Notes: generated by a model from the sequence alone, not told the origin. A stretch of DNA of 64,000 bases from Alicyclobacillus sp. (GCA_023511295.1 JAIMBT010000001.1:62001-126000); one strand, 5' to 3'; positions 12,647-55,381 are shown, counted from the stretch's first letter. Numbers and translations: made by a program.

Positions 12647-12677
12647 AAGTCGAATTTTATCTGAAGGGAGAGAAAGT

Positions 12678-14294: not shown

Positions 14295-14319
14295 CGGTCG
14301 CCAGGCATCCAAGAACACG

Positions 14320-14352: not shown

Positions 14353-14355
14353 TCC

Positions 14356-15843
14356 TTATCGTAAGCAACCGGTAGGGCTTGCACCATCGTGATCGACGCA
14401 CACGAATGCGCGCTCCAAGAAGTTATTCCGCACGCTCGTTCTGGGTAGAGACCGCACGCTGCAGACCTTGTCAAAGCACATCGCGGCCCGCTCATCGAAC
14501 GTGTACACGGGCCACTTCGGCAGGTCCGGGATCTGTGGACAGCCCGATTGAACGAACGCGATGAGAGCCCTGTGCATCGCGTCGGCAAGTGAAGCGGCTG
14601 TCGGAGGAACGATGAAGGGGTCTGCGGGGCCGCTCTGGTTCCAGAAGAACGGGATGTCCTGGGCGTGACACGGCCCGTGCACCCCCTCCCAGTCGAACCG
14701 ATACCGCCACACGGGAATTCCCTGCTTGGCGAGTTCATCGGCGAATCGCTCGGTCCCAAGCCCATAAAGGCATTCGCTGAGCACCTCGACGGCAGCCGCC
14801 TCCGGGTCCATGCGGCGCCTGCGTTCATGGTACGCCGCCAGCACTGCGCCCGTGTTTGTGCCAAACAGCCGGCGCAGGACGGCCTCGTCCATCGCTTTGA
14901 GGAGCGGATCTGCGTCCGTATAGATCTGGGCCTCGCGGCGCGTTGACCCGAGAAGGACCCGCACGTCTCGCGATGTTGGCCGTCCAGCCCAAGCCAGCCG
15001 CTCCGACGACAAGGTGACGCCGTCGAGGACGGGGCCGAACAGGTGCAGCCCGCGTGCACCGGTCCCGAGCCGCTCTTGTGCACCGAGCAGGCGCTCGAGC
15101 GGCAGACCCCGCAGGGTCTCCAGGTCGGCGTGATCAAGTTCCAGTTCGCGAAGGAAGGCGCGCGTGACAGCCTGTGCCGTGCCTGCATCGCGCACCGTCT
15201 GGGCCGCGCCGCTCTGCAGCACCGCCTGGCGGAACAACCCGTCCGCCTGCGGCGCCGCGAAGAGGGCGGCGACCAGTTTGGCACCCGCAGACACGCCGCC
15301 CACGGTCACGCGGCCAGGATCTCCCCCGAACGCTGCGATGTTCTCCTGCACCCACCGCAGCGCCGCGATGACGTCCAGCAGCCCGCAGTTTCCGGACGTC
15401 GCAAGGGATGGGGTCGCCAGGTGCAAAAAGCCGAGCGCGCCGAGCCGGTAGTTCATCGAGACGAAGACAAGGTCGCCGTTCTCTGCCAAGCGCGCCCCGT
15501 CGCTGTAGACGTCTGCGCTCGATCCGCTCGTTAAACCACCCCCATGCACCCAAACCAGGACGGGGCGCGCACCGCTGTCCGCCGCCGGTGTCCACACGTT
15601 CAGTGTCAGGCAGTCTTCCGACTGCGGCAGGTCCGCCCGCGGCAGCAGTGGAGGGGCCGCGGGCTGCGGCGCCATGGGGCCGAACGCAACCGCCGAACGG
15701 AGACCGGTCCAGGGGATGGGCGGCGCGGGCGGCTGGAAGCGCCGGGGGCCGACGGGAGGTGCGGCGTAGGGGATACCGGCGAACCGCCAGACGGCCCCCG
15801 CTCGCGCACCTTGCACCACTCCGCAACGCGTCTCAACCTTCAT
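14356..15843 (-). CDS. Type B carboxylesterase
   Basis: Alpha/beta-hydrolase of the carboxylesterase type B (PnbA-like) family, 495 residues. It shows GIPYAAPPVGPRRFQPPAP near the start, SEDCLTLNVWTP, oxyanion segment WVHGGGLTSGSS and nucleophile elbow VTVGGVSAGAKLVA with the catalytic Ser. An Asp/Glu partner and the late His (GPCHAQDIPFFW) complete the expected triad. No signal peptide is seen, so it is cytosolic. Hydrolyses carboxylic esters; natural substrate unknown. It ends convergently with the amino-acid permease and starts 93 bases downstream of the FMN reductase on the same strand, so the two could be cotranscribed. Confidence 0.92.
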   Translation of the reverse strand: MKVETRCGVVQGARAGAVWRFAGIPYAAPPVGPRRFQPPAPPIPWTGLRSAVAFGPMAPQPAAPPLLPRADLPQSEDCLTLNVWTPAADSGARPVLVWVHGGGLTSGSSADVYSDGARLAENGDLVFVSMNYRLGALGFLHLATPSLATSGNCGLLDVIAALRWVQENIAAFGGDPGRVTVGGVSAGAKLVAALFAAPQADGLFRQAVLQSGAAQTVRDAGTAQAVTRAFLRELELDHADLETLRGLPLERLLGAQERLGTGARGLHLFGPVLDGVTLSSERLAWAGRPTSRDVRVLLGSTRREAQIYTDADPLLKAMDEAVLRRLFGTNTGAVLAAYHERRRRMDPEAAAVEVLSECLYGLGTERFADELAKQGIPVWRYRFDWEGVHGPCHAQDIPFFWNQSGPADPFIVPPTAASLADAMHRALIAFVQSGCPQIPDLPKWPVYTFDERAAMCFDKVCSVRSLPRTSVRNNFLERAFVCVDHDGASPTGCLR

Positions 15844-21493: not shown

Positions 21494-21529
21494 CGAAACG
21501 TAAGCTGACAACTGAATAGGACATAACGT

Positions 21530-21660
21530 GTCCGCTACTGCTGAATTCCCGAAAGGGAAACGGGGGAACCAACTCTGGGGTGAATCTGGTCGCGACCACG
21601 CGGCCGGACGGGTACTCTTAAGCCCGAACCCGACAGCTAACTTCGTAAGCATTTAGGAGA
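21530..21660 (+). ncRNA. c-di-AMP riboswitch (ydaO/yuaA leader)
   Basis: The leader carries the highly conserved blocks of the ydaO-yuaA class: CGGGGGAACCA (21561-21571), GGGGTGAATC (21577-21586) and AGCCCGAACCCGACAGCTAA near 21620-21640, ending CGTAAGCA. It is followed at 21715-21746 by an intrinsic terminator, giving a transcriptional OFF switch when c-di-AMP is high. The downstream genes encode a glycine betaine/carnitine/choline-type importer, matching the known role of c-di-AMP in limiting osmolyte and potassium uptake. The exact ends of the aptamer are approximate. Confidence 0.9.
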
Positions 21661-21714
21661 GTAGTGCTGTGCGCTTTGGCACATGGCACCGTGTTTGTCA
21701 TCTATGCAGGAGTT

Positions 21715-21746
21715 CCCCGTAGGCAAGTTTGCCTATGGGGTTTTTT
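21715..21746 (+). terminator. Riboswitch-controlled intrinsic terminator
   Basis: CCCCGTAGGCAA (21715-21726) pairs with TTGCCTATGGGG (21729-21740) over 12 positions including one G-U type pair, followed by six T. It lies between the c-di-AMP aptamer and the ATPase start and is the expression platform. Confidence 0.88.
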
Positions 21747-21829
21747 GCGTGGAGGCAGCGCGAGGATGTCCGGCTGGACACCAGTTTGGACACGGTACGT
21801 CTAACAATCCCAATGGAGGTGGTGCGCAC

Positions 21830-22984
21830 GTGCTGACATTCTCCCATTTGGGGAAGACCTATCCGGACGGGACGGACGCCGTGGTCGATTTTAACCTGGA
21901 GGTAGCCCGTGGCGAACTGATTGCCCTGATTGGGCCGTCCGGGTGTGGAAAATCGACCACGCTGCGCATGGTGAATCGGCTGATTGAACCGACCTCTGGC
22001 ACCGTGATGCTGGACGGCCAGGACTACAAGTCGATGGATCCTGTGGAACTGCGAAGGCGACTCGGGTACGTGATTCAGCAGATTGGTCTCATCCCCCATC
22101 TCACCATCGCGGAGAACATCTCCTTTGTCCTGCGGCTGCAAGGTGTGAACAAGCAGAAACGGCGGGAGCGCGCGAGCGAGTTGATGGCACTCGCCGGTCT
22201 TCCGGCAGATCAGTACCTCGACCGCTACCCGAGGGAACTGAGTGGCGGGCAGCAGCAACGGATTGGCGTTCTGCGGGCACTCGCACATGACCCCGAGATT
22301 ATCCTCATGGACGAACCGTTCGGCGCACTCGACCCCCTCATGCGTGAGCAACTGCAGGACGAACTCAAGCGGTTGCAGCAGGCGGTGCAAAAGACGATTA
22401 TCTTCGTCACCCACGACATGGATGAGGCGCTCCGCATTGCAGACCGAATTGTCATCATGCGAGCGGGGCGCGTCATCCAGGTCGCGACACCGGAAGAGAT
22501 GCTGCGTAACCCGGCCGACGAGTTTGTCGCCGAGTTCATCGGCCGCCAGCGCTTGTTGCGCCAGGCGAGCGAGGTCGCGGTGCGAGAGATCATGCTCGAT
22601 AATCCGGCGATGGTCAGCGCCGACACCGGTCTGGCGCAGTCCCTTGAATTCATGCGCCGGCGAAAGGTCGACTCGGTGTTGGTCAAAGGCCCGAACGACG
22701 TGTTTGTCGGCGCGGCGCGGGCTCGCGACGTGCAGCGCGCCTTGGAGGCGCGCGAGCAGTCGAAGATCAGCGCCTATGCGCGCCACGGCAGCGTATTTGT
22801 CGGCCCGGACGACCCGGCGATGAACGCCATCCACCACATGCTGGCGTATGGATTGGACGCCATCCCGGTGCTCGGCCCCGGCAAGGTGGTGGTCGGGATT
22901 GTCACGCGCGGTACGCTGGCGGGTGTGTTGGACGACGCCCTGCGCACCAGCGCGGCGGCACCGGCCCTCGAGGCAAACGCATGA
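21830..22984 (+). CDS. Osmoprotectant (glycine betaine/carnitine/choline) ABC transporter ATP-binding protein with CBS domains
   Basis: ATPase of an OpuC/OpuB-type importer, 384 residues; GTG at 21830 lies 9 bases after GGAGGT. Walker A IGPSGCGKST, signature LSGGQQQR, Walker B IILMDEPFGALD and H-loop VTHDMDEAL are intact. The C-terminal ~120 residues form two CBS modules (REIMLDNPAMVSADTGLAQS and the later YGLDAIPVLGPGKVVVGIV), which sense ionic strength or c-di-AMP in related systems. First gene of a three-gene operon. Confidence 0.93.
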   Translation: MLTFSHLGKTYPDGTDAVVDFNLEVARGELIALIGPSGCGKSTTLRMVNRLIEPTSGTVMLDGQDYKSMDPVELRRRLGYVIQQIGLIPHLTIAENISFVLRLQGVNKQKRRERASELMALAGLPADQYLDRYPRELSGGQQQRIGVLRALAHDPEIILMDEPFGALDPLMREQLQDELKRLQQAVQKTIIFVTHDMDEALRIADRIVIMRAGRVIQVATPEEMLRNPADEFVAEFIGRQRLLRQASEVAVREIMLDNPAMVSADTGLAQSLEFMRRRKVDSVLVKGPNDVFVGAARARDVQRALEAREQSKISAYARHGSVFVGPDDPAMNAIHHMLAYGLDAIPVLGPGKVVVGIVTRGTLAGVLDDALRTSAAAPALEANA

Positions 22985-23026
22985 CGTCGATTCACATTCC
23001 TCGCAACGGAAAGGAGGTCGCTCTGC

Positions 23027-23671
23027 ATGCTGTCTGAGCTTTGGCAGTACACACTGACGCACGGTGCGGACATCTGGAGTCTGACCGTGCAGCAATTATA
23101 CCTGGTGGCCATCCCGATGGCGTGTGCGATTGTGATTGCCGTACCGCTCACGATTCTCTCCACCCGCGTCAAACGGCTGTATCCCTGGATCATCGGCTTC
23201 AGCAACGCGATGCAGACGATTCCCAGCCTCGCGCTCTTGGTCCTGATGATCACGATTGGCCTCGGCATCGGCATCGTGCCGGCGACGGTCGCACTGTTCG
23301 TTTACGCCTTGATGCCGATTGTCCGCAACACCCACGTCGGTATTTCAGGCGTGCCGAACGAGGTGAAGGACGCCGCCATCGGCATGGGCGCCACCAAGTG
23401 GCAGTTGCTCTGGCTGGTGGAACTGCCCATGGCGCTGAAGGTGATTGTCGCCGGCATCCGGTCTGCGTTGGTGATGACCATCGGCTTCGCGACGCTCGCT
23501 GCCCTGATTGGTGCCGGCGGTCTCGGCTCGCTCATCATGCAGGGGCTCGGCATGGCGGACAACGCCATCGTGTTGGCCGGCACGATTCCGGCTGTCATCC
23601 TCGCTTTCCTCGCCGAGTTCTTGATGGGGCGATTGGAGCGGCTTCTGACGCCGAAGGGGCTGCGTGTCTGA
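23027..23671 (+). CDS. Osmoprotectant ABC transporter permease (OpuCB/OpuCD-like)
   Basis: 214-residue membrane protein; AAAGGAGG precedes the ATG. It has about five or six hydrophobic helices and the EAA loop around KDAAIGMGATKWQLLWLVELP, typical of OpuBB/OpuCB/ProW-like permeases. Only one permease gene is present, whereas opuC operons usually contain two; this one may form a homodimer or pair with a distant partner. Confidence 0.9.
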   Translation: MLSELWQYTLTHGADIWSLTVQQLYLVAIPMACAIVIAVPLTILSTRVKRLYPWIIGFSNAMQTIPSLALLVLMITIGLGIGIVPATVALFVYALMPIVRNTHVGISGVPNEVKDAAIGMGATKWQLLWLVELPMALKVIVAGIRSALVMTIGFATLAALIGAGGLGSLIMQGLGMADNAIVLAGTIPAVILAFLAEFLMGRLERLLTPKGLRV

Positions 23672-23725
23672 GCGTTTGTGTGAATCTTGCAACCGTCAGA
23701 CTATCGAAATTCTGGGAGGCGAATC

Positions 23726-24673
23726 ATGAAGAAGACACAGATGGCTGGAATGGTCGCAGCTTCCGTCGCGTTGGTCGGAATCCTCGCTGGTTGCGGTGCG
23801 GGGGCAGGGAGCGGATCGAACACTGCGAGCAGCGGGAAGAAGCCGATGCAGATCACCATCGCGACGCAGGATTTTTCGGAACCGGTGATTGACGACTACA
23901 TGATTAAGGACCTCATCGAGGCGAAGACGCCTGTGAAAGTGACCATCAAACAGACGAGTGGCGCGTCCGGTCTGATGCACACGATGATGATGAGCAACGC
24001 CATCCAGATCTACACCGGTTGGGACGGGACGGAGTTTAGCGGCCCGCTGAAACAGAGCTACACAGGCTCGTTCAAGGGTCACCCGAACAAGGTCTACAAT
24101 TATGTGAAGGACCAGGAGATGAAGCAGTTCAATGTCTGGGTCTCACCGTCGCTCGGGTACGAGGACACCTACGCGCTCACGGTCACCCAGGCGACAGCGG
24201 ATAAGTACCACCTGAAGACGGTTTCCGATGCCATCCCGTACGCGAAGAATTGGGTGCTCGGTACGGATACCACCTTCCAGAGCCGGGTCGGGGACGGATT
24301 GGCGGACTTTGAGAAAGCGTACGGCATCCAGTTCAAGAGCACGAAGGCGATGTCGTATGACCTCATGTACCCAGCTCTTGCGAATGGCGCGATTCAAGCC
24401 GGGGTTGCCTATTCGACAGACGGGCGGTTGAAGAAACTGCACGAGGTCCCGCTGACAGACGACAAGCACTTCTTCCCGCCCTACCATGCCGTGATCTTGA
24501 TCAACGCGGACGTCGAAAAGGCGTGGAACCTGGACCAGGTGTTGAAGCCGCTGTACGGGCTCATCACCACGGCTGACCAGACGGAGTTGAACTACGAGGT
24601 GGACGTGCTGAAGAAGGACCCCGCAACGGTGGCACACGACTTCCTCGTGCAAAAAGGCGTGTTGAAAAACTGA
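23726..24673 (+). CDS. Osmoprotectant-binding lipoprotein (OpuCC-like)
   Basis: 315-residue substrate-binding lipoprotein; ATG at 23726 follows GGGAGG. N-terminus MKKTQMAGMVAASVALVG is followed by lipobox ILAGC. The mature region begins with IATQDFSEPVIDDYMIKDLIE, typical of the OpuAC type II family of quaternary ammonium binders, and contains IQIYTGWDGTEFSG. Aromatic residues (Trp/Tyr) for caging a quaternary amine are abundant, but the cage cannot be assigned without alignment. Last gene of the operon. Confidence 0.9.
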   Translation: MKKTQMAGMVAASVALVGILAGCGAGAGSGSNTASSGKKPMQITIATQDFSEPVIDDYMIKDLIEAKTPVKVTIKQTSGASGLMHTMMMSNAIQIYTGWDGTEFSGPLKQSYTGSFKGHPNKVYNYVKDQEMKQFNVWVSPSLGYEDTYALTVTQATADKYHLKTVSDAIPYAKNWVLGTDTTFQSRVGDGLADFEKAYGIQFKSTKAMSYDLMYPALANGAIQAGVAYSTDGRLKKLHEVPLTDDKHFFPPYHAVILINADVEKAWNLDQVLKPLYGLITTADQTELNYEVDVLKKDPATVAHDFLVQKGVLKN

Positions 24674-44453: not shown

Positions 44454-44524
44454 AAACCCTGTTGGATGAAGCGAAATCCGGACACCCTGTGTCCGAGTGA
44501 AACACATTGGGGAGTGGAGAAACG

Positions 44525-46210
44525 TTGGCAAACAGCAGCACGGCGGTGCAGCGCACCAACCAGATTACCGGGAGCCGCAAGTGGTGGGCGCTGGCGACCG
44601 TCCTGTTGACGATGTTCTTCTCGTCGATGGACCAGACCGTGGTTTCCACCGCGATGCCGACCATCATTGGCGACCTGAACGGCCTGAACCTGTACGCTTG
44701 GGTGTTCAGCGCCTACATGATGACTTCGGCGGTCACCGTGCCCATCTACGGCAAGTTGTCGGACGTGTACGGGCGCAAGCCGTTCTACCTGCTCGGTCTC
44801 ATTCTGTTCGGGGCCGGGTCAGCGGTCAGCGGCGCGACGCACAGCATGCTGGCGTTGGTCATCGCTCGGGCCTTCCAGGGAATCGGTGCCGGCGCCATGA
44901 TGAGCATGCCCCGGGCGACGGTCGGCGACATCTTCAATCCAAAGGAACGCGGGCGCTGGATGGGTGTCATGGGCGCCGTGTTTGGCGTGTCCAGCATCGT
45001 GGGACCGACCCTCGGCGGATGGATTACCGACTCTTTCAGCTGGCGGTGGGTGTTCTACATCAACCTGCCGTTTGCGGTGCTGGCCATCATCGGCGTGCTC
45101 GTCACCCTGCCCAAGGTGCGCGTAGATCATCAGGTGAAGATCGACTGGTGGGGGACGTTCCTCCTCGTGGTGGGACTCGTTCCCATCCTGCTGGGGTTCA
45201 CCTGGGCCGGCACGAAGTACCCGTGGGGTGCGTGGGAGACCATCGCTCTGTTCGCAGGCGGCGTGGTGCTCCTCGCTGTGTGGATTTTGGTTGAGCGGAA
45301 GGCGGCAGATCCGGTCGTCGCACCTTGGCTGTTCAAAAACCGCATCTTCTCGACCTCTCTTATCCTCGGCGTGCTGGTCGGGATGGCGATGTTCGGGAGC
45401 CTGATGTACCTGCCGGTTTACGTGCAGGGCGTCATCGGCCTCAATGCGCAGCACAGCGGCCTCATCATGTCGCCGATGATGATTAGCTTCATTGTCGGCA
45501 GCATGGTTTCCGGCCAGGTCATGACGCGCACGGGCCGCTACAAGGTGCTCGCTGTGGTCAGCGCGCTGGTCGGCGTCCTCGCGCTGTTCCTGTTCACGCG
45601 GCTGAATGTGCACACGCACTACGCCACGGTGATGGTCGACATGATTGTCCTCGGCCTCGGCATCGGGTCCTTGATGCCGCTGCTGAACGTCGCCGTTCAA
45701 AACGCGTTTCCTTATAAAATGATGGGAACGGTGAACTCGACGCAGCAGTTCGTGGGGTCGCTCGGCGGCGTGATTGCCTCACCCATCTTCGGAAGTGTCC
45801 TGAACGCGCGCTTCTCGCACGTGATTGGCCAGCACTTGCCAAAGCAGCTCGGCCCGATGGCCGCGGCGATTCAGAAGATCAATCCGCAAGACCTCCTGAC
45901 GGCGGAGGCGCAGCAGAAGTTGAGCGCGGCTTTCAGCCAGTTTGGCCAGGCGGGCCATCAACTGTACCTGCAAGTGCTGGATGCGGTCAAGATTGCCCTC
46001 ACAGCCGGCGTCAATCGCCTGTTCTACGTCGGGCTGGCGTTCGCCATTGCGATGTTTATCGGGACGTTCTTCCTGCCGGAGTCGCGGCTCAAGGGCGAGG
46101 AGTACTTCGAGGAACACAGTGCCGATTCAGCGGGGGATGGGGCGAACCATCACGGCGAGTCCGCTCCTGGCGCTGGCGTGCACGCGGCTCCGGAGGGTTC
46201 GGGTCGCTGA
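44525..46210 (+). CDS. DHA2-family MFS drug/proton antiporter (14 helices, EmrB/QacA-like)
   Basis: 561-residue exporter. TTG 44525 follows GGGGAGTGGAG. The first helix region KWWALATVLLTMFFSSMDQTVVSTAMPTI (pieces LLTMFFSSMDQTVVS and AMPTIIGDL) carries the DHA2 signature, with motif A as GKLSDVYGRKPFYL and motif C-like PTLGGWITDSFSWRWVFYIN. A long loop of about 50 residues separates the last two helices. Probably exports toxic organic compounds; control by the palindrome at 44437-44453 is likely. Confidence 0.92.
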   Translation: MANSSTAVQRTNQITGSRKWWALATVLLTMFFSSMDQTVVSTAMPTIIGDLNGLNLYAWVFSAYMMTSAVTVPIYGKLSDVYGRKPFYLLGLILFGAGSAVSGATHSMLALVIARAFQGIGAGAMMSMPRATVGDIFNPKERGRWMGVMGAVFGVSSIVGPTLGGWITDSFSWRWVFYINLPFAVLAIIGVLVTLPKVRVDHQVKIDWWGTFLLVVGLVPILLGFTWAGTKYPWGAWETIALFAGGVVLLAVWILVERKAADPVVAPWLFKNRIFSTSLILGVLVGMAMFGSLMYLPVYVQGVIGLNAQHSGLIMSPMMISFIVGSMVSGQVMTRTGRYKVLAVVSALVGVLALFLFTRLNVHTHYATVMVDMIVLGLGIGSLMPLLNVAVQNAFPYKMMGTVNSTQQFVGSLGGVIASPIFGSVLNARFSHVIGQHLPKQLGPMAAAIQKINPQDLLTAEAQQKLSAAFSQFGQAGHQLYLQVLDAVKIALTAGVNRLFYVGLAFAIAMFIGTFFLPESRLKGEEYFEEHSADSAGDGANHHGESAPGAGVHAAPEGSGR

Positions 46211-46222: not shown

Positions 46223-46251
46223 TTGCGCTCGGTGGTCGACTCTCCTATACT
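46223..46251 (+). promoter_or_regulatory. Promoter of the cobalamin-riboswitch operon
   Basis: TTGCGC (46223-46228), 17-base spacer, TATACT (46246-46251). Predicted start near 46258, giving a leader of about 440 bases. A strong hairpin CCGACGCCC/GGGCGTCGG (46265-46298) follows at the start of the leader; it could also end the MFS transcript, but has no T run. Confidence 0.65.
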
Positions 46252-46304
46252 CGTTCTTGTAAACCCGACGCCCGGCGGCATGCGCCGCAGGGCGTCGGAC
46301 CAAC

Positions 46305-46545
46305 TTCATGTGAACTGCGGCCTCACACGTTGAGTGCAGGGCCCGGTGTGGTCGCTCCGGCGAAGAGTGGGCGACGCGCCAGAGGCCTGCATTGGGAATC
46401 CGGTGGAAGTCCGGAACAGCCCCCGCTACTGTGAGTGAACACGAAATCTCAAGTGCCACGGCGGACGGCGGTCCGCGGGAAGGCGAGAGAGTAGGCCGAG
46501 GCGTGTCCGTCGCGCCCAAGTCACGAGTCAGGAGACCAGTCGCAG
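46305..46545 (+). ncRNA. Cobalamin (B12) riboswitch
   Basis: The leader contains the class hallmarks: GGGAATCCGGTGGAAGTCC (near 46393-46411), CCCCCGCTACTGTGA (46421-46435), the GCCAC region, GGGAAGGCGAGAG and the B12 box AGTCAGGAGACCAG (46526-46539). A following intrinsic terminator gives transcriptional OFF control by adenosylcobalamin. It precedes a DUF4430 protein, an ECF transporter and a transcobalamin-like protein. Ends are approximate. Confidence 0.93.
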
Positions 46546-46635
46546 TTCCGAACGAGATCCACTTCGGAGGGAAGTGATGGGCACTCGTCACGGTCGGTCT
46601 CGCCCGCGAGCGGCAGACAACACGCCGGATGCATC

Positions 46636-46662
46636 GGCTTCCCCTTGCGGGAGGCCTTTTTT
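46636..46662 (+). terminator. Terminator of the cobalamin riboswitch
   Basis: GGCTTCCC (46636-46643) pairs with GGGAGGCC (46649-46656, one G-U) and is followed by six T. Lies 36 bases before the first start codon of the operon. Confidence 0.85.
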
Positions 46663-46697
46663 GCGCACGTTGACGGAACCGCGGAGGTGAAGGTCCT

Positions 46698-47609
46698 TTG
46701 AAGCCGAGGAACTGGCTCCGCCTTGGCCTGTTGCTGGTGGCGGTGCTGGCGGTCTGCTTCGGTGTCGCGCGGTACACGCACCGGGCGGCCACCCCTGCGC
46801 CCGCCAACTGGGTGGCGGCGGTCGACAACCGGGCTGGCGCCGGAGCGGCGGCGAATGCGGCGAACAACGTGGGGAACGCCGGAGGTGTCCCGGCGAACCG
46901 CGTCTCGAACAACGGGAGAGGAAGCGCGTCGACGAACGCGTCCGGACTGACCGCAGTCAACCGGACCGGCGCGGGGACGCAAGCGGGTGGCGCCACCCGT
47001 CCCGGCGCTGCGTCCGCCAACCGGACCCCTGGGCATGGCTCTGGCGGGTCGGCGCCGGCGGTGGACGGTAACGGGTCGCACGCCGCAACGAACGATGCCG
47101 CTCGCAGCGGTGCCAACGCGCGGAAGGCCGGTTCCACAGGCAACAGCACCTCCGACGGCGCAGGGACCCCGTCGTCCGCATCCAGTCGTTCGGACGCGTC
47201 GAACCGTGCTGCGGGACCGTCCGGTTCATTCGGGAGCGGGTCGACCAACACCGCGTCCAGCGGGGGGAGCGGCGCCAGCGGATCGTTCACCGTCGTCGTC
47301 AGTGAGAACCAGGGCGCAACCCTGCTCGAGAAGAAAGTGTTGCCGATTCACGCTGGCGAGAATCTGATGCAGTACATGGAGCAGAATTTCCAGATTGAAA
47401 CCGCCTACGGCGGCGGCTTTATCGTGAGTATCGACGGAGTCAAGTCGCAGTGGACCGGTGTCCCGGTGAGCCAGCGTCAGCCGGTCGATTGGTTCCTCTA
47501 CATCAACGGTCAGGAGGCGCCGGTGGGCGCTGCGAGCATCATCCCGCGGAACGGAGACGTGGACACATGGGACTATCACCGGTGGGATCCGAGCACGGGG
47601 AAGGGTTGA
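46698..47609 (+). CDS. Membrane-anchored or secreted DUF4430 protein (transcobalamin beta-domain-like)
   Basis: 303-residue protein, TTG start 8 bases after GGAGGTGA. N-terminus: basic KPRNWLR then a hydrophobic helix (LGLLLVAVLAVCFGVARY), a signal or anchor without a clear lipobox. Residues ~35-195 are a low-complexity linker of Ala, Gly, Asn, Ser and Thr. Residues ~195-300 match a DUF4430 domain: SFTVVVSENQGATLLEKKV, ENLMQYMEQNF, GGFIVSIDGV, VDWFLYINGQEAPVGAAS and GDVDTWDYHRW. DUF4430 is the fold of the C-terminal beta domain of animal transcobalamin and intrinsic factor. Position behind a B12 riboswitch supports corrinoid capture outside the membrane. The long linker would let it span the cell wall. 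Confidence 0.85.
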   Translation: MKPRNWLRLGLLLVAVLAVCFGVARYTHRAATPAPANWVAAVDNRAGAGAAANAANNVGNAGGVPANRVSNNGRGSASTNASGLTAVNRTGAGTQAGGATRPGAASANRTPGHGSGGSAPAVDGNGSHAATNDAARSGANARKAGSTGNSTSDGAGTPSSASSRSDASNRAAGPSGSFGSGSTNTASSGGSGASGSFTVVVSENQGATLLEKKVLPIHAGENLMQYMEQNFQIETAYGGGFIVSIDGVKSQWTGVPVSQRQPVDWFLYINGQEAPVGAASIIPRNGDVDTWDYHRWDPSTGKG

Positions 47610-48526
47610 TGAGCGGATGGAGCGGACGCCACCGGTATCGGCGCAAGGCCCGCGAGACACACCCAGTGACCTGGTTGGTTGCGATGGCGGCGTGGGTGTG
47701 GGCGGTGTACCGGTTGCAGAGCCTGTCGGCGCTCGCCGCGTACGCAGCGCTCGGCGTGGGGCTGCAGGCCCTGCTGAACCGTGATCCCCTCGGCCGGCGC
47801 GTGCTGATGCGGGCGCTGTCGGCAGCCTTCGCTGCGGCAGCGATGGTGGCTCTGTTCGCCCTGGTGTCGGCTCTGTTCGCGGACGGCGGCCGGGTCTGGT
47901 GGCGGGGTCCACACATCCCAGGCCTCGGCACGCTGCAACTCACGTCCAGCGGTGTGGCACTCGGACTGTCGCGGGCGCTGCGCATCTGGGGCCTGCTGCT
48001 CGGGGTCGCGGCGTGGGCCAGCCACGTCCGCCCAGACGACGTCACGGTGTGGCTCGGACGCCGGTTCGCTCGGGCAGGATTGACGCTCGCGATGATCTTC
48101 ACGTTTCTGCCCACCGTCCGCCGCGAGTACCAGCGCCTCGGCGAGTACGTGCGGACGCGCACTGGTCTCGACGCAATCCGTTCCCGCCGCGCCCGCCTGC
48201 GCGCGATGGGGGTCATCCTGCAGGCCCTGTTGGCGAATGCACTCGAGCGGTCGTGGATTTTGGCAGAGTCGATGTACGTGCGCGGGTACTCCGCCCAAGG
48301 TCGGTCCCGCTACCGCCAAACTCGCTGGTCTGCGGTCGATGCGGTGTTTGCGGGGGCGCTCGCCGCAGCCCTCGCCGCGGCGCTGACGGCTGCGCTGGTC
48401 GCTCGCAGCTCGTCTGCGGGGGGCGTGGCAGAACACCCGACAGTGCAGGGTGCGGTGTCGGTGTTCCTATGGTGCATCCTGTGCGGATTGGGGGTGGTTG
48501 CGCGTGTGGGCGGTCGAGATGCATGA
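47609..48526 (+). CDS. ECF transporter T component (EcfT)
   Basis: 305-residue membrane scaffold of an energy-coupling factor importer; its ATG shares one base with the preceding TGA. Several hydrophobic helices, then the cytoplasmic coupling region with VRREYQRLGEYVRTRTGLD and ALERSWILAESMYVRGYSAQ, the second fitting the Ala-Arg-Gly type motif of EcfT that contacts the ATPases. A dedicated T subunit within the operon suggests a group I ECF transporter for a single vitamin. Confidence 0.88.
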   Translation: MSGWSGRHRYRRKARETHPVTWLVAMAAWVWAVYRLQSLSALAAYAALGVGLQALLNRDPLGRRVLMRALSAAFAAAAMVALFALVSALFADGGRVWWRGPHIPGLGTLQLTSSGVALGLSRALRIWGLLLGVAAWASHVRPDDVTVWLGRRFARAGLTLAMIFTFLPTVRREYQRLGEYVRTRTGLDAIRSRRARLRAMGVILQALLANALERSWILAESMYVRGYSAQGRSRYRQTRWSAVDAVFAGALAAALAAALTAALVARSSSAGGVAEHPTVQGAVSVFLWCILCGLGVVARVGGRDA

Positions 48527-50159
48527 CGTGACCTACACCTATCCAGAGGCGGAACAGCCGGCGCTGGTCGACGTGCAACTGCAGGTGCCAGAGGGTGCTT
48601 GGGTGCTGCTGCAGGGCCCGACGGGATCAGGCAAGTCGACCCTGCTCAAGTGCTTGACCGGTGCGTGTCCCGAGTTCTACGGCGGCCGCCTCGCCGGGCG
48701 CGTCACGGTGGCGGGCTTCGACACGGCGGCCTGGTCCCCGGCACAACGCGCCGCAGCCATCGGGTACGTCGCCCAAGATCCCGAGGCGGTGGCCGTTTAC
48801 GACGTGGTGGAGCGAGAAGTGGCATTCGCGCTCGAGAACCTCGGCGTACCGAGGTCTGAGATGGCCTGGCGCGTCGCCGAGGCGCTGGAAATGGTCGGCC
48901 TCTCCGCGCACGCGCGCGACTCGGTCGAGACGCTGTCCGGCGGCGCGCGGCAGCGGCTGGCACTCGCCGGCGCACTGGTCCACCAGCCGCGTGTCCTGTT
49001 GCTCGACGAACCGGCTTCTCAGCTCGATCCGGTGGCGGCCGACGAACTGCTCGACTGCCTGCAGCGCCTGCACCAAGACTTCGGCCTGACGCTTCTCATC
49101 GCCGAGCACCGGTTGGACGCACTGTACCCGCGCGTCGACACCGTCGCCTACCTGGAAGCAGGCCGCATTCGAAAGACCGCCCCACCGCAGGAGATGGCCG
49201 AGTGGCTGCGCGAGGAGCGACCAGACCAGGTTCCTTTGCTCGCACGCCTGTTCCCGGAACACGCGCCGGTCCTGACGGTGCACGCCGTGCGCCAGCGGCT
49301 TGCGGAGGCCGTTTCACCGCGCCCCACCGCGGCGGCCGAAGCGGCCGAAGCGGCCGAAGCGGCCGCTCCCCGCTCGGCGACGGACGCGGCAGGGTTCGCT
49401 GGCGCAGAGCCCATCCGCACGGAGCGCGTTCGTGTGCACTACCGCGGGGCGCGCGATGCCGCGTTGGACCGCCTCACGGCCACCATCGCGCGCAACCGGT
49501 TGACGGCGGTGATAGGACCGAACGGATCTGGAAAAACCACCCTGTTGCGGGTGCTCGCCGGGTTGCAGCCGCCGGACGGCGGGCGCGTGGTGTGGCCGGG
49601 CAGAGCAGGCGGTCGGTTACGTGTGGGCTACCTGCCACAGAAGCCGTCCGACCTGTTCAGCCAGCTCACCATTCGCGACGAGTTGGCCTACGGTCTCGAG
49701 TTGCAGGGCGTTCCGCGGAGGGACGCCGCCGCCCGCGTGGCGGACGCGGCGCTGCGGTTCGACCTCACAAGCCAGATGGAACGCTCGCCGCGTGACGTGT
49801 CCGGCGGCGAACAGGTGCGCGTCGCCATCGCCAGCCTGTGGTTGACGTCTCCGGACATCCTCCTGCTGGACGAGCCCACGCGCGGCCTCGATGCCGCCCA
49901 GAAGCGAGGTCTCGGAGAGATGTTGGCGGGACTGGAGGGTGTGACGGTCGTGCTCGTGACACACGACCTCGAGTTTGTCGCTGAGCACGCGGGCCAGGTG
50001 CTGTTTCTGTACCGCGGCGAGGTGGTTCTGTCCGGCGCCCCGAAACAGGTGTTTGACAAAGCACTCGCGTTCGCGCCACTGTTCGCCCGGGCGTTCCGAG
50101 GGGTTGATCCGTCCGTGCACTGCCTCTCCGACGCGGTTCGGGCGGGGTGGGGGCGGTGA
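48504..50159 (+). CDS. ECF transporter ATPase, two ATP-binding domains fused
   Basis: 551-residue protein; GTG 48504 follows GGGGGTGG and overlaps ecfT by 23 bases. Domain 1: Walker A GPTGSGKST, signature LSGGARQRLALAGAL, Walker B VLLLDEPASQLD. Domain 2 (from about residue 310): Walker A GPNGSGKTT, signature VSGGEQVRVAIASL, Walker B ILLLDEPTRGLD. It corresponds to EcfA1 and EcfA2 joined in one chain. The linker contains AEAAEAAEAA, encoded by three identical GCGGCCGAA units plus a variant (49332-49367). Confidence 0.93.
   Translation: MWAVEMHDVTYTYPEAEQPALVDVQLQVPEGAWVLLQGPTGSGKSTLLKCLTGACPEFYGGRLAGRVTVAGFDTAAWSPAQRAAAIGYVAQDPEAVAVYDVVEREVAFALENLGVPRSEMAWRVAEALEMVGLSAHARDSVETLSGGARQRLALAGALVHQPRVLLLDEPASQLDPVAADELLDCLQRLHQDFGLTLLIAEHRLDALYPRVDTVAYLEAGRIRKTAPPQEMAEWLREERPDQVPLLARLFPEHAPVLTVHAVRQRLAEAVSPRPTAAAEAAEAAEAAAPRSATDAAGFAGAEPIRTERVRVHYRGARDAALDRLTATIARNRLTAVIGPNGSGKTTLLRVLAGLQPPDGGRVVWPGRAGGRLRVGYLPQKPSDLFSQLTIRDELAYGLELQGVPRRDAAARVADAALRFDLTSQMERSPRDVSGGEQVRVAIASLWLTSPDILLLDEPTRGLDAAQKRGLGEMLAGLEGVTVVLVTHDLEFVAEHAGQVLFLYRGEVVLSGAPKQVFDKALAFAPLFARAFRGVDPSVHCLSDAVRAGWGR
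49332..49367 (+). repeat. Short tandem repeat in the ECF ATPase linker
   Basis: Nine-base unit GCGGCCGAA three times, then GCGGCCGCT. It encodes Ala-Glu-Ala repeats between the two ATPase domains and may vary in copy number between strains. Confidence 0.85.
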
Positions 50160-50842
50160 AGCGCTGGGTCACTGCGGGCGCGGTGCTGGCGGCGCTGGCA
50201 GTGCTCGTCGTCGGGAGCGCGCAGGCGTGGCCGTGGTGGGTGACCGTGATTGGCCTCCTCGCGCTCGGGGGCTATGCGCTGTTGGAGTGGTACGAGCGGT
50301 TCGCAGTGGACCCGAAGCGGATTGCCCTCGTCGCGACGCTCTCCGCCGCCGCCTCGATTGGGCGTACGGCGGTACAAGGGATACCTGGGGTTCAGCCGGC
50401 AACGTTCATCGTCATCCTCAGCGGCTATGCGTTCGGCCCCGCGATGGGGGCGGCGGTCGGGGCGTTTACGGCCGTCGGCTCCGACTTCTTTCTCGGCGAA
50501 GGCGGCTGGACGCCGTGGCACGTGGTGGCGTGGGGTCTCGCGGGCTGGACGGCCGGGTTGCTGCGCCGGGTCTTGCCGCGGTACCGCACACGGTTCATGG
50601 TGTCGTTCGGGCTGGCGTGGGGGTATGTGTTCGGGTGGATCATGAACACCTGGTCGCTGCTCGGCGGGTCCGTGCGTGATGTTCACGCATTTATCCTCTT
50701 GTGCGTTGCGAGTTTCTGGTTTGATACCCTGCACGCAGTCGCGACGGGTGGGCTGTTGTGGGTTGCAGGGAAGGCGGTGTTCGCCGTATTCGAGCGGTTT
50801 CGCCGCCGCATGGAGGTTGCGCGCGTGAACTCCGCTGGCTAA
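50156..50842 (+). CDS. ECF transporter S component (predicted cobalamin/cobinamide specificity subunit)
   Basis: 228-residue membrane protein with about six helices; GTG 50156 overlaps the ATPase stop (GTGA). Features typical of S components include ATLSAAASIGRTAVQGIPG, VILSGYAFGPAMGAAVGAF and a GLAGWTAGLLRR end of helix. It gives substrate specificity. Linkage to the B12 riboswitch and transcobalamin-like proteins suggests a CbrT-like corrinoid transporter. Assignment is by context; the sequence alone only shows an ECF-type S subunit. Confidence 0.82.
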   Translation: MKRWVTAGAVLAALAVLVVGSAQAWPWWVTVIGLLALGGYALLEWYERFAVDPKRIALVATLSAAASIGRTAVQGIPGVQPATFIVILSGYAFGPAMGAAVGAFTAVGSDFFLGEGGWTPWHVVAWGLAGWTAGLLRRVLPRYRTRFMVSFGLAWGYVFGWIMNTWSLLGGSVRDVHAFILLCVASFWFDTLHAVATGGLLWVAGKAVFAVFERFRRRMEVARVNSAG

Positions 50843-50931
50843 AGCTGGCAGCTTACGCGGGGTGGACGACCGGTGCGGCGGGGGTCGCATCATTCCGTCG
50901 GGCGTTGTCCGACGATGGGGGGAGAAACTTC

Positions 50932-52197
50932 GTGAAGAAAGCGATTTGGACGACAGGGTTGATGGTGTTGGTGAGTGTGTCGGCGGCGCCGGCAGCGTTT
51001 GCCGCGAGCAGCACCGGGGCGAGCGGTCAGGTGACCGGGGCGGTGCCGACCGTTTCCACGGCAAAGGTGCAGTCGGACCTCAAGGCGGCAGTCGCGTGGA
51101 TGAACAAGAACGGCGCGTCCAGCCTGCCGTTTTGGGTGGACGTCGCGGACTTTGCGGCGACCGGATCGTTCACCAAAGAGACGTGGACGAAGGCCTCGTT
51201 TGCCAAACTGTCGGCCAGCACCGACTACGCGAAAGCCATCCTCGGCGTCCTCGCGTCCGGCCAGGACCCGCACGACGTGGCGGGCATCAACCTCGTGGCC
51301 AAGCTGGCAGCGTCGCAGCTGACCTCCGGCGACAATACGGGCAAGTTCGCGGACAACATCGACGGGACCGGCACCGACCTCATCAACAATCAGGCGTGGG
51401 CCATCATCGCGCTGGAGGACGCGGGCGGCGCGCACTACAACCGCGCAGCCGCGGCCATGTGGCTGCTGTCCAAACAGAACCAGGATGGCGGGTTCGGCTA
51501 TTCGACGCAGTACAGCACGAGTGATCCCGATGATACGGCCGCCGCGTTGGTCGCCCTGCGGTTGCTCGGGTTTGGCCAAGGAGATCCCGCTGTTGCGAAG
51601 GCACTTGCGTACCTGAAGACGCAACAGGCGAAGGACGGCGGCTTTGAGAACGGCGCGACGACGTCCAACTCGGATTCGACCGGCGTGACCATCGACGCAC
51701 TGACCGCGTACGGTATTCCGGCGTCCAGCTGGACGGTGGCTTCCGGCACACCGGTCACCGCGCTTCTCGCCGACTTCAACGCCGCGAGCGGCGGCTTCAA
51801 CTACGACAACACCGGCGGCGAATACTCCGGTGTGTCTGCGATGTCGACCCGCGACGCCATCTTCGGGCTCGCGGCGTTCGCGACGAGTCAGTCGGTGTAC
51901 CAGCGGCTTCAGGCGAAACCACTCACCTATCTCAACCCGTATTGGACGAAGATCTACGAGGCTGGCGGCGGCTGGGCGAACCACCACTGGGAGACCTGGG
52001 CCGAGCTGCGCCCGATGGCGATTGCCGGCAGCTACCTGTCCGACTTGACGCCCGCTTGGCAGAAGGTGGTCAAGGACCGCGGCATGTACGTGGAACAGGG
52101 TGGAAAGCGCGTCTTCGAGGCGTGGGATGCCAAGCTCGCAACGGAGGCGTTGACCGCCAGCTTTGGGCTGGACACGGCGCACTTGAACCAGATCTGA
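50932..52197 (+). CDS. Secreted alpha/alpha-barrel protein with prenyltransferase-like repeats (transcobalamin alpha-domain-like)
   Basis: 421-residue secreted protein; GTG 50932 follows GGGGGGAG. Signal peptide KKAIWTTGLMVLVSVSAA with cleavage after AFA. The body carries regularly spaced motifs: QNQDGGFGY (~184), QQAKDGGFEN (~235), ASGGFNYDNTGGE (~285), each in a helix-hairpin pattern as in prenyltransferase/squalene-cyclase repeats. The N-terminal alpha6/alpha6 barrel of animal transcobalamin and intrinsic factor has this same fold, and bacterial relatives occur with DUF4430 under B12 control. No Asp-rich cyclase motif (DXDD) is seen, and it is exported, so a terpene cyclase is unlikely. 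Likely a corrinoid-binding partner of the DUF4430 protein. Confidence 0.82.
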   Translation: MKKAIWTTGLMVLVSVSAAPAAFAASSTGASGQVTGAVPTVSTAKVQSDLKAAVAWMNKNGASSLPFWVDVADFAATGSFTKETWTKASFAKLSASTDYAKAILGVLASGQDPHDVAGINLVAKLAASQLTSGDNTGKFADNIDGTGTDLINNQAWAIIALEDAGGAHYNRAAAAMWLLSKQNQDGGFGYSTQYSTSDPDDTAAALVALRLLGFGQGDPAVAKALAYLKTQQAKDGGFENGATTSNSDSTGVTIDALTAYGIPASSWTVASGTPVTALLADFNAASGGFNYDNTGGEYSGVSAMSTRDAIFGLAAFATSQSVYQRLQAKPLTYLNPYWTKIYEAGGGWANHHWETWAELRPMAIAGSYLSDLTPAWQKVVKDRGMYVEQGGKRVFEAWDAKLATEALTASFGLDTAHLNQI

Positions 52198-52261
52198 CGG
52201 TGCGAAGACGGCAGAGAGTGGTCCGGGCGACACAGGCTGGATGAATCCCGGACAGCGCAAC

Positions 52262-52290: not shown

Positions 52291-52353
52291 GACATGTTTC
52301 CAACGGTTTCCGCGCACCCTATCCGTGTAAAACGGGCGAAACGGGGTGTTGGG

Positions 52354-52932
52354 ATGAAGCAGTGGCTGTTCCTTCCTGGGGTGTTGATCTGCACTCTGTT
52401 CACTGCGGGGTGCGGCCCGCGCGGGTCGATGCAACACGCGTACAACCAGGCTGGGGCCGCTGCCTGGAACGCGGTCAATGTCACGCAGTGGCCGGGGCGG
52501 GGAGCGGTCCCCGCCCGGACGGCGCCGGGGTATGCCGGGTCCATGCCGGAAGGTGTCACCGCCCCGCTGCCGCGCGCCATCGCTGGTCCGCCGCAAAACC
52601 TGGACCTCCCCCACAAGCGGGAACTGGTGCAGGTGATGGGGGAATACAGGGGGCGCGGCATCCACGTCGCGGCACACGTGCGCATGCGGGGCAGCCGGGT
52701 GACGGTGTACTACCTGCCGGCCGGGAACCTGGTGCACCGCGGGACGCATTATGATCTCGCCAGTGCCCGCGACGTCCAGTTCATCGGCACCTACCCGACG
52801 GATGCACGGGGCCATTGGCGCGCCTCGTGGAACATGCGCGACTATCCCCGGCCTGGCCACCAGCCGCTGTTCTTCATCGCCGTCAGCGACGGCGGAAGTG
52901 TCGTGCTCATCCGGACCGACACCATCAGCTGA
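52354..52932 (+). CDS. Small lipoprotein of unknown function
   Basis: 192-residue predicted lipoprotein: MKQWLFLPGVLICTL then lipobox FTAGC. Mature part is Pro/Ala/Gly-rich up to about residue 85, followed by a beta-strand-rich region (VQVMGEYRGRGIHVAAHV, VTVYYLPAGNLVHRG, LFFIAVSDGGSVVLIRTD) that suggests a small extracellular beta domain. Not recognised. It follows the B12 operon on the same strand but behind a hairpin; TTGACA at 52289-52294 may be part of its own promoter, though no good -10 is seen. Confidence 0.7.
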   Translation: MKQWLFLPGVLICTLFTAGCGPRGSMQHAYNQAGAAAWNAVNVTQWPGRGAVPARTAPGYAGSMPEGVTAPLPRAIAGPPQNLDLPHKRELVQVMGEYRGRGIHVAAHVRMRGSRVTVYYLPAGNLVHRGTHYDLASARDVQFIGTYPTDARGHWRASWNMRDYPRPGHQPLFFIAVSDGGSVVLIRTDTIS

Positions 52933-52991: not shown

Positions 52992-53870
52992 TCACTGAAT
53001 GACGCGCCGCGCAAACACGAGGTTTCGGCCGAGCCAAGTGCCGTTCAGCGGCTCGATGGTGACCTTGCCCCAGCCGCCGCCTTCCTGAATCACTTTGCCG
53101 TTCCCCATGTAGATGCCGACGTGTCCGCCTCCCGTCGGGTTGTTCGACGTGGCGAAAAACAACAGGTCGCCTTCCCGGATGTCACCGAGCGCAACCGGGG
53201 TTCCGACCGAATTTCGCTGCGTGACGGAGGAACTCGAGAACTGAATGCCAAGGGCCGTCCTGTAGCACCAAGACGTGAAGTTACTGCAGTCAAATCCGAC
53301 GCCTGGAACCTGGTGTCCCCACCAGTACGGTACCCCCAGCTGCGACTTGGCTGCGGCAATCACCTTGTCCGCTTCCACCTGCCACGCGGGTTCTGCGTTC
53401 GCGCTGCCGGTTCCGGAAGTGCTGGTCCCGCTCGCGGTGGACCCGGCGCTGGATGCGCTGGTGCTGCCGTTGCTCCCCGTGCCGGTCGACCCGGCCGCGG
53501 TCAATCCGCCGGTGGTCGTTCCGCCCGCCGACACGCCCGTCCCGGCGCCTTGCTGTGGCGAAGTGGACGTCGACGATACGGGTTCGGTCACGACCTTCGT
53601 GTATTTCGGGTTGGTGGTGATGTATACGTCCTTGCCGTTCAGTTGGATCTCGTACCACCAGGCGTTGGCTTTTGCGATGAGCGGGGCCTTTTCACCCAGC
53701 AGCAGACGTCCGACAATGGGGCTCGAGAGCTTGGCAGCGGTGTGAACGGATACCCATCCGTGATCTGTCTCGACGTACGTCGCGGAGCTCGAGGTCGACG
53801 CGAACACGGAGGGCGTCGCGAGTGCCATCGCCAGGGTGCCTGCCATCAGGGTTCGGGCCATCTTGTTCAC
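52992..53870 (-). CDS. Secreted NlpC/P60 endopeptidase with SH3-like domain
   Basis: 292-residue cell-wall hydrolase. GTG 53870 follows AAGGAGAT. Signal peptide (MARTLMAGTLAMALATPSVFA, here pieces NKMARTLMAGTL and PSVFA). An SH3-type domain follows (VSVHTAAKLSSPIVGRLLLGEKAPLI in part), then a Gly/Ser/Thr-rich linker of about 75 residues and the C-terminal NlpC/P60 domain with catalytic Cys in GFDCSNFTSWCY and His in GGGHVGIYMGNGKV. Cleaves peptidoglycan stem peptides. It is one of two wall-remodelling genes here with the L,D-transpeptidase upstream. Confidence 0.9.
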   Translation of the reverse strand: MNKMARTLMAGTLAMALATPSVFASTSSSATYVETDHGWVSVHTAAKLSSPIVGRLLLGEKAPLIAKANAWWYEIQLNGKDVYITTNPKYTKVVTEPVSSTSTSPQQGAGTGVSAGGTTTGGLTAAGSTGTGSNGSTSASSAGSTASGTSTSGTGSANAEPAWQVEADKVIAAAKSQLGVPYWWGHQVPGVGFDCSNFTSWCYRTALGIQFSSSSVTQRNSVGTPVALGDIREGDLLFFATSNNPTGGGHVGIYMGNGKVIQEGGGWGKVTIEPLNGTWLGRNLVFARRVIQ

Positions 53871-54298
53871 GGAACCATCTCCTTCATGTGGTGTCGAGCT
53901 TGTCCCATCGCAGTGCCAACAGGAGCTTGTCCGGTCTACCGTGGTCATGGCGGGGTTTCCAGCCGTCGACTGAAGCAGGGGGTCTTCCCCTGTACATGCA
54001 CAATTCTTGCACCGGTGGGAGATCCCTTCCGGTAAAACTTACCGAGGCTTCCGGCATCCCGGGTGGAGGGGGTCCAGTAAGGCGAGGCAAAGGGGGGAGG
54101 TCCGTTCGCGCACAAACCGGAGAATGGCGGTTTCTGATGGATATGAAAGCGGATTCATTTCATGCCGAGAGGATGTCCGCTATCGAACGTGGATGGATGT
54201 GCGGATACAAGCGCTACAGCAAGATCCGCACGTCCAACCAGTCCGTCCCGCCAGACGCCGGTGGCGCGTGCGGGCCACTGGGAAGCCGCGCTGTGGGC
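53871..54298. other. Gene-free gap between two cell-wall genes
   Basis: 428 bases without a credible gene. It should hold the promoter and leader of the minus-strand NlpC/P60 gene. CGGTAA/TTACCG near 54031-54044 lies within a larger imperfect stem. I tested it by eye for c-di-AMP and c-di-GMP riboswitch blocks, which often precede wall hydrolases, and did not find them. Confidence 0.5.
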
Positions 54299-55285
54299 CT
54301 ACGCATCCGACGCGGATGAGATCTGAACGAGCGTTCCCAGGTGCATGTAGGGCCAGACCTGCTGCGCCGCGGAAATCGGCAGTTCCACGCACCCGAGGCT
54401 CTGCGGGTACCCGTACGCCGACCGCACAAACCCATGCACGGCCTCGCCGCCGTAGAAGTAGCTGACGTAGGGGACACCGGGATCGCGGTAGGGATGTCCA
54501 GATGGATCGACACCGGACATCGTCTGGGACCGATACTGCAGGTATACGGGATAGGTCCCCGTCACCGTGGGACTGGCCGGAATGCCGGTATTGACAGGGG
54601 TCTTGACGACCACTGCGCCATTGTGCCAGAGCTCCAACTGCTCGGGCAGGTGGGTCGAGACCATGACGAATGTGAAACCGTAGGGCGACTTGCGGTGTGC
54701 CGAGAGGTCGTGCATCAGCGCGCCGAGCACCTTCGGTCCGGCAATGCCATCCACAGCGAGTCCGTGGACCTGCTCAAAAGTCATGACCGCCGATTCCGTC
54801 AACACGGTGAACGTCGTCGGGTTCCACAACTGTGCCAGACCGCGGGGGATAGCTGGATAGGTCCACGTCCATCGCCCCCCGAGCTGTGTGGGTTCACCGC
54901 CCGTTGGCGGGGTATACGTCAACGGCAAATATCCCGTTTCTGCCAATTCAATCTGGAGTTGTTCCACCTTCTGTCCCGAACTTCCCAGCTTGTACATGGG
55001 TGGGGGTGGTGGAGGAGGTGGCGGAGCCGCCTGTACGCTGCCAGCTGGTCCGCTCAATCCGCCGACTCCGGAGGTACCCACGCTGTTGGACCCACTTTGG
55101 TCCCGCTGCGTCCTGCTCGATGCGCTCGTTTGGTTCGCTGAACTCGCAACGGCGACCGTGTTGTTGACGGGACTGGGGCCAGGACCCGAGCTGGCATCAC
55201 CGGACGTGAACGGTGTGACGCCGCAACCGGTACACGCCAGCACGGCCAGTGTCAACGATGTTGCGACAACGGGCGCGTATTTCAT
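54299..55285 (-). CDS. L,D-transpeptidase (YkuD) lipoprotein with peptidoglycan-binding domain
   Basis: 328-residue envelope protein; ATG 55285 follows AAGGCAGG. Signal and lipobox VLACTGC. After a Ser/Asn-rich linker comes a run of nine prolines, then a PG-binding-type domain (MYKLGSSGQKVEQLQIELAE ... VDGIAGPKVLGAL) and the YkuD domain with catalytic Cys in YPQSLGCVELP preceded by HGFVRSAYG. Cross-links peptidoglycan by 3-3 bonds or attaches proteins; cation-independent beta-lactam-resistant type of cross-linking. The linker likely spans the cell wall. Confidence 0.88.
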   Translation of the reverse strand: MKYAPVVATSLTLAVLACTGCGVTPFTSGDASSGPGPSPVNNTVAVASSANQTSASSRTQRDQSGSNSVGTSGVGGLSGPAGSVQAAPPPPPPPPPMYKLGSSGQKVEQLQIELAETGYLPLTYTPPTGGEPTQLGGRWTWTYPAIPRGLAQLWNPTTFTVLTESAVMTFEQVHGLAVDGIAGPKVLGALMHDLSAHRKSPYGFTFVMVSTHLPEQLELWHNGAVVVKTPVNTGIPASPTVTGTYPVYLQYRSQTMSGVDPSGHPYRDPGVPYVSYFYGGEAVHGFVRSAYGYPQSLGCVELPISAAQQVWPYMHLGTLVQISSASDA

Positions 55286-55381
55286 GGCCGCCACCTGCCT
55301 TCCGGCGATGCAAAATGCCGCCGGTTTACCCTATGGTGGTGGCAGGAAAATATGACCGACCCGTGCCCAGAAACGGCGCAT

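Follow-up and report, generated by a model that had tools for sequence, protein, structure and literature searches.

What is imported by the five-gene operon that lies behind a cobalamin riboswitch in Alicyclobacillus sp. (GCA_023511295.1, JAIMBT010000001.1:62001-126000), and what do its two exported proteins contribute? The window, i.e., the whole analyzed stretch of 64,000 nucleotides, carries this operon on its plus strand. A preliminary description had read it as a transcobalamin-like capture system split over two proteins and coupled to an importer of the energy-coupling factor (ECF) type. The operon almost certainly imports cobalamin and/or cobinamide, that is, it serves corrinoid uptake, and the complete account of a corrinoid capture-and-import operon is held to be probable. 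The preliminary description stood with respect to the corrinoid ligand, the fold of the DUF4430 protein and the partnership of the two exported proteins, while the assignment of the toroid protein to the transcobalamin alpha domain was supported only in part, the idea was not new, and the absence of BtuF was true of the window only. The system consists of the following features.

46344-46558, plus strand: cobalamin riboswitch aptamer (RF00174), full-length model match in cmscan
46636-46656, plus strand: intrinsic terminator hairpin of 8 bp followed by TTTTTT, from a pattern scan
46698-47609, plus strand: membrane-tethered DUF4430/SLBB protein of 303 amino acids (PF14478, AlphaFold2 model, fold comparison)
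47609-48526, plus strand: EcfT, CbiQ-type transmembrane coupling subunit (PF02361)
48504-50159, plus strand: EcfA, two ATP-binding cassette (ABC) ATPase domains fused in one chain (ABC_tran twice, TIGR04520)
50147-50842, plus strand: N-terminally extended S subunit of the CbrT family (phmmer and profile match to 6fnp_A)
50932-52197, plus strand: exported alpha/alpha-toroid protein of 421 amino acids (Prenyltrans/SQHop repeats, AlphaFold2 model)

The substrate is indicated most strongly by the S subunit, whose membership in the CbrT family is the best single argument for a corrinoid. In a single-sequence phmmer search, its sole credible relative in the PDB was 6fnp_A (E 6e-8), and a profile built from 16 homologues reached the same chain with an E of 4e-42, the next S component following at 0.14. 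Entry 6FNP is the ECF-CbrT complex of Lactobacillus delbrueckii. ECF-CbrT of this species was shown to import both cobalamin and cobinamide at the expense of ATP (Santos et al. 2018, PMC5997447). The window S subunit, which has an N-terminal extension of about 50 amino acids relative to CbrT, would likewise be a cobalamin/cobinamide transporter, transport having been demonstrated for the L. delbrueckii protein only.

The rest of the importer is encoded alongside. EcfT matched PF02361 (CbiQ) in Pfam with an E of 1.2e-8, while EcfA contained two ABC_tran stretches (E 1.4e-55, Pfam) and exceeded the cut-off of the ECF ATPase model TIGR04520 in NCBIfam, so that EcfT, two ATPase domains and an S subunit make up a complete dedicated ECF module within the operon. 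All five genes lie on one strand with their ends overlapping or near each other, and the EcfT start codon (ATG, 47609) overlaps the stop codon of the DUF4430 gene. These overlaps, the N-terminal membrane or signal segments and the DGGF motifs were present as first described. The same five genes occurred in unchanged order in the 8 closest operon-bearing relatives, with a cobalamin riboswitch upstream in 7 of them, and the arrangement is therefore not due to chance; the named relatives with this operon are Alicyclobacillus species, and the genome of the window falls into their family.

Upstream of the genes, cmscan matched RF00174 at 46344-46558 on the plus strand; the match scored 80.5 bits, where the gathering score is 31.5, and had an E of 3.2e-18. 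Two overlapping terminator-like matches were detected in the leader by the pattern scan compared with 0.3 in shuffles, and the hairpin at 46636-46656 is the probable expression platform; the RNA fold of this platform gave a z of 0.14 in the shuffle test, which is uninformative on folding. The cobalamin riboswitch with a terminator ahead of the operon was thus recovered, and the aptamer is predicted to act as a cobalamin-binding regulator of the five genes.

The association with cobalamin extends to other genomes. DUF4430 was found in 121 of 398 sampled genomes of the phylum. When the best DUF4430 gene was taken from each of 40 genomes, 27 of these genes had a cobalamin riboswitch on the same strand within 10 kb upstream, while 0.38 were expected at random. 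A Streptomyces plasmid operon starts with a cobalamin riboswitch and continues with a toroid gene, a hypothetical protein, EcfT, EcfA and an S subunit, with metE adjoining, and in a Lactiplantibacillus plasmid the gene row is nrdJ, cob(I)alamin adenosyltransferase, DUF4430 and CbrT. The preliminary description had named another vitamin's riboswitch in relatives as a sign against it; such riboswitches were looked for upstream of the relatives' operons of this kind, and only the cobalamin class was seen. Thiamine pyrophosphate riboswitches in two loci (L146 and L150) sit downstream of the S gene. The corrinoid ligand proposed earlier is thus backed by the family of the S subunit, the riboswitch of the operon itself and the riboswitch linkage in relatives.

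The gene content of the genome was considered next to this. B12-linked genes comprise MetH, the fused isobutyryl-CoA mutase IcmF, a protein with the methylmalonyl-CoA mutase C-terminal domain, and lysine 5,6-aminomutase. CbiC, the one marker of corrin-ring synthesis looked for, was not found in the genome, which makes de novo corrin synthesis unlikely. Three cobalamin riboswitches occur in addition to that of the operon. Two of them are located at one locus on contig C11 together with PduO, a CobT-BluB fusion, a BtuF-like lipoprotein, a BtuD-like ATPase, CobU, CbiB, CobD and CobQ; the fusion is a single open frame of 640 amino acids (L096, 15820-17739, minus strand) within this riboswitch-controlled salvage locus. 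The third (L097, about 14264-14462, minus strand) precedes the alpha subunit of a class I-type ribonucleotide reductase (11716-14139, minus strand), presumably the B12-independent isozyme that is turned off by B12. The earlier statement that no BtuB/BtuF-type genes are present was accurate for the window and incorrect for the genome, given the BtuF-like and BtuD-like genes on contig C11. Judging by these genes, the organism depends on B12 and is probably unable to build the ring, but it is equipped to finish precursors and has a further importer. The operon might then take only part of the corrinoid range, be it cobinamide, incomplete corrinoids or certain cobamides, and leave the remainder to the BtuF locus. 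This refinement is a tentative one; it fits the presence of precursor salvage and a second importer, seen in the BtuF/BtuD-like genes beside CobU, CbiB, CobQ and the CobT-BluB fusion, and the fact that CbrT takes cobinamide too.

Import of cobalt or another ion, as in CbiMNQO systems behind cobalamin riboswitches, would be compatible with the Pfam naming of EcfT as CbiQ, and cobalt transporters are also controlled by cobalamin riboswitches (PMC11477304). However, the S subunit belongs to the CbrT family and has no match to CbiM, a transcobalamin-like trap would be needless for a cobalt ion, and the lack of CbiC speaks against a pathway for corrin synthesis in this genome. Cobalt import was accordingly rejected as highly improbable on account of the CbrT-family S subunit.

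Of the two exported proteins, the DUF4430 protein can be placed more precisely. PF14478 was matched at amino acids 220-294 (E 2e-12, 47.7 bits against a cut-off of 23.8). The protein has one N-terminal hydrophobic segment (Kyte-Doolittle mean 2.3), followed by a linker of about 145-170 amino acids rich in A, G, S, T and N and by the transcobalamin beta-type domain at the C-terminus (amino acids 195-303), and the same plan of hydrophobic N-terminus, linker and C-terminal DUF4430 domain was found in 9 of 9 orthologues. The AlphaFold2 model of the domain had a mean predicted local distance difference test (pLDDT) score of 92. VIA-align superimposed it on transcobalamin, haptocorrin and intrinsic factor with Z scores of 12.1-13.4 over 93-98 residues, while other folds reached 7.1 at best, and the beta-domain fold claimed for DUF4430 was thereby confirmed. 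The 15 best rows also include 3u7z, a structural-genomics protein from Ruminococcus gnavus. A DUF4430 sequence profile found no match among PDB chains, the link to transcobalamin coming from the fold comparison alone. By analogy with this fold, the DUF4430 domain may bind corrinoids; PDB 5np4 shows cyanocobalamin bound to a transcobalamin beta domain on its own.

The toroid protein carries an ordinary Sec-type signal ending in AFA and Prenyltrans/SQHop repeats (Pfam), its toroid domain spanning about amino acids 40-330 of 421. The AlphaFold2 model (pLDDT 87) is a genuine alpha/alpha toroid, and its best fold matches in VIA-align were squalene-hopene cyclase (Z 24.8), single-domain type II cyclases, prenyltransferases and sugar epimerases. 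None of the 50 best VIA-align rows was transcobalamin, which does not exclude likeness, and in Foldseek transcobalamin was a weaker match (E 3.6e-5, TM 0.44), with cyclases and prenyltransferases ranking higher. The sequence profile of the toroid reached cyclases, complement C4 and prenyltransferases, and did not reach transcobalamin. The proposed transcobalamin alpha-domain fold is therefore borne out as far as the fold class goes, while a place in the transcobalamin family is not supported, cyclases being closer and PF01122 giving no match. The exported toroid may take part in binding a corrinoid, together with the DUF4430 domain. The C-terminal stretch of about 100 amino acids (window positions 51930-52194) aligned only among Alicyclobacillus-type orthologues and holds no recognised domain; it may serve for docking or for attachment to the wall.

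With such fold matches, and with a DXDD-like motif (SDPDDTA) in the window protein, the toroid might have nothing to do with B12 and act after export as a class II terpene cyclase or a prenyl-binding protein. Terpene cyclase activity is disfavoured because the motif is not kept among homologues from operons of the same type, which read SDSNDT or DVDST at this place. The Sec-type signal, the control by a cobalamin riboswitch and the fusion of homologues to DUF4430 and to surface anchors likewise count against a role outside B12, which is regarded as very unlikely.

The relation between toroid and DUF4430 is visible in other operons. Among toroid operons sampled from other Bacilli, 7 of 8 encode both domains in one chain; these fused chains measured 682-1638 amino acids, had the domains in either order and also occurred in Clostridia-type genomes. 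Some fusions bear SLH or LPXTG-type surface anchors, and their toroids match the profile of the window protein. The fusion operons carry a second, free DUF4430 gene adjoining EcfT, which is the position of the DUF4430 gene in the window. In one of the operons (L152), toroid and DUF4430 are separate as well. Since the two are fused in some lineages and apart in others, the separate chains probably cooperate, and the partnership put forward in the preliminary description is borne out by the fusions in relatives.

The distribution of CbrT was surveyed in 20 loci (L136-L155), one per family, hand-picked after 399 Bacilli had been scanned for CbrT. Short CbrT genes with open frames of 167-190 amino acids were found in 11 loci, with no toroid and no EcfT or EcfA within about 13 kb, and a DUF4430 gene adjoined the short CbrT in 10 of these. 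Another 8 loci combined a long CbrT with EcfT, EcfA, a toroid and DUF4430, while L155 was intermediate. A cobalamin riboswitch lay upstream in 7 of the 8 long-CbrT loci; the operon of L154 begins too near the end of its stretch to judge. The two types were seen in L047, L063-L067, L069-L081 and L136-L155. Over all S genes examined, EcfA accompanied the N-terminal extension of about 50 amino acids in 27 of 28 S genes and was found with none of the 17 short ones (45 S genes, Fisher p 2e-11, only indicative because loci from the toroid search are included and related loci are not independent; L136-L155 are less biased). A Lactobacillus (L. kefiri) plasmid (L047) encodes a long S subunit and a dedicated module and has neither toroid nor DUF4430 within the 12 kb fetched, from which it appears that the extension is tied more closely to a dedicated module than to a toroid. 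CbrT systems thus come in two architectures, one with a short S subunit and DUF4430 alone, the other with a long S subunit, its dedicated EcfT and EcfA and usually a toroid. When the 30 best CbrT-family genes of Bacilli were considered, 25 had a DUF4430 gene next to them.

From these elements, a course of uptake can be proposed for the window operon. At low intracellular cobalamin, the riboswitch would permit transcription past the terminator, as is usual in its family. The DUF4430 domain would be held outside the membrane by its flexible linker, and the tethered DUF4430 protein and the secreted toroid would close on a corrinoid as a two-piece trap resembling transcobalamin. The CbrT-type S subunit would take over the cargo from this trap and free it into the cytoplasm, powered by the dedicated EcfT and the double EcfA. 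The first and last of these steps would follow well-studied families, while the middle ones are suggested by fold, fusion and neighbourhood. That the two exported proteins form one joint clamp is moderately favoured. The full proposal, an ECF transporter with a two-chain, transcobalamin-like extracellular clamp of toroid and membrane-tethered DUF4430 that hands corrinoid to CbrT, the toroid belonging to the architecture with long CbrT and its own EcfT and EcfA, is given an even chance.

Several observations weigh against the account of a corrinoid capture-and-import operon. The toroid is not nearby in many CbrT systems that carry DUF4430, and it may therefore be accessory. Squalene-hopene cyclases are closer to its model than the alpha domain of transcobalamin is, and PF01122, the family of the eukaryotic cobalamin-binding proteins, gave no match at E of 1 or below for the window toroid and 11 homologues. 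The BtuF-like gene and BtuD-like ATPase lie behind cobalamin riboswitches on contig C11, by which uptake may be redundant or partitioned by ligand. In A. montanus (L057), the complete five-gene operon had no upstream cobalamin riboswitch even at a lax threshold. Finally, a reviewer of Burroughs et al. (PMC1796856) cautioned that the ligands may differ within this clade.

The absence of the toroid within 13 kb of the 11 sampled short-CbrT genes, 10 of them with an adjacent DUF4430 gene, would be expected if the S subunit had DUF4430 as its sole extracytoplasmic binding partner and the toroid did other work, such as wall tethering, taking corrinoids off binders in the environment or remodelling cobamides as an enzyme. 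The DUF4430 proteins of L049 and L050, which are lipoprotein-like with a Cys after the signal segment, and the crystal structure of an isolated transcobalamin beta domain with cyanocobalamin (PDB 5np4) point in the same direction. The fusion of toroid and DUF4430 in many operons weighs against this explanation, and a toroid gene was present in 9 of 9 examined operons of the window type. It is considered a possible, though doubtful, alternative to the joint clamp.

Genes beside the operon were also inspected. A major facilitator superfamily gene at 44507-46210 was left out of the system because it adjoins the operons of relatives in some cases only. Downstream of the toroid gene lie an exported lipoprotein-like protein (52294-52932), an exported NlpC/P60-like cell-wall hydrolase (52992-53948) and an exported protein with peptidoglycan-binding and L,D-transpeptidase-like parts (54299-55294), the latter two named by eye from sequence. 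Elsewhere in the window, a cyclic di-AMP riboswitch (21529-21666) lies immediately 5' of an OpuC-like ABC transporter (21683-24673) with ATPase, permease and substrate-binding protein, assigned by eye; the arrangement looks ordinary.

ECF transporters are usually viewed as capturing their substrate by the membrane S subunit, without a soluble binding protein. If the proposed clamp is real, import by some ECF transporters includes a binding-protein stage outside the cytoplasm, contrary to that view. The split version in a single operon would offer a clean experimental system for the opening, closing and cargo release of a transcobalamin-type clamp, and it bears on the proposal that animal transcobalamin and intrinsic factor were acquired from Gram-positive bacteria. 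As DUF4430 is common and often lies behind cobalamin riboswitches, an answer would provide a testable function for many surface proteins of unknown role.

The central idea is not novel and is already known as a prediction of 2007, when, in the sections on transcobalamin-like SLBB proteins, B12 scavenging was proposed for those encoded in CbiO/CbiQ operons (Burroughs, Balaji, Iyer, Aravind 2007, PMC1796856). Searches of the open-licence literature on DUF4430 and cobalamin, on SCO2322, and on prenyltransferases combined with a cobalamin riboswitch and ECF brought up no experiment on a bacterial member. New here are the fully split pair, its link with CbrT and with cobalamin riboswitches, backed by counts, and the pattern of two architectures. 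The systems covered in those sections share with the window a secreted SLBB/DUF4430 protein, the association with an alpha/alpha toroid, EcfA-like and EcfT-like operon genes and the proposed scavenging of B12. They contain toroid-SLBB fusions and paralogous SLBB pairs, whereas the window has one SLBB protein and one toroid, each a chain of its own, encoded by the first and the last gene of the operon, and the passages concerned mention neither a CbrT S subunit nor a riboswitch.

ECF-CbrT of L. delbrueckii (PMC5997447, 6FNP) has an S subunit of the same family, and the ECF-driven uptake of cobalamin and cobinamide is that of the L. delbrueckii system. Its CbrT is short and uses one ECF module common to other S subunits, while the window S subunit is extended and is accompanied by its own EcfT and EcfA and by two exported proteins. 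The CbrT/CbrU/CbrV systems of Lactobacillus plasmids (named in PMC6722938) are similar in that a single cluster holds a long CbrT with its own EcfT and EcfA; unlike the window, the L. kefiri plasmid copy lacks toroid and DUF4430 in the stretch fetched. BtuF/BtuCD likewise combines extracytoplasmic capture with subsequent ATP-driven import, though folds and families differ. Animal transcobalamin, intrinsic factor and haptocorrin share the combination of a toroid and a beta-grasp domain, between which the animal proteins sandwich their ligand. They do so within one chain, while in the window the two parts are encoded by two genes, a difference that keeps the pair out of the animal family, and the toroid is only distantly similar.

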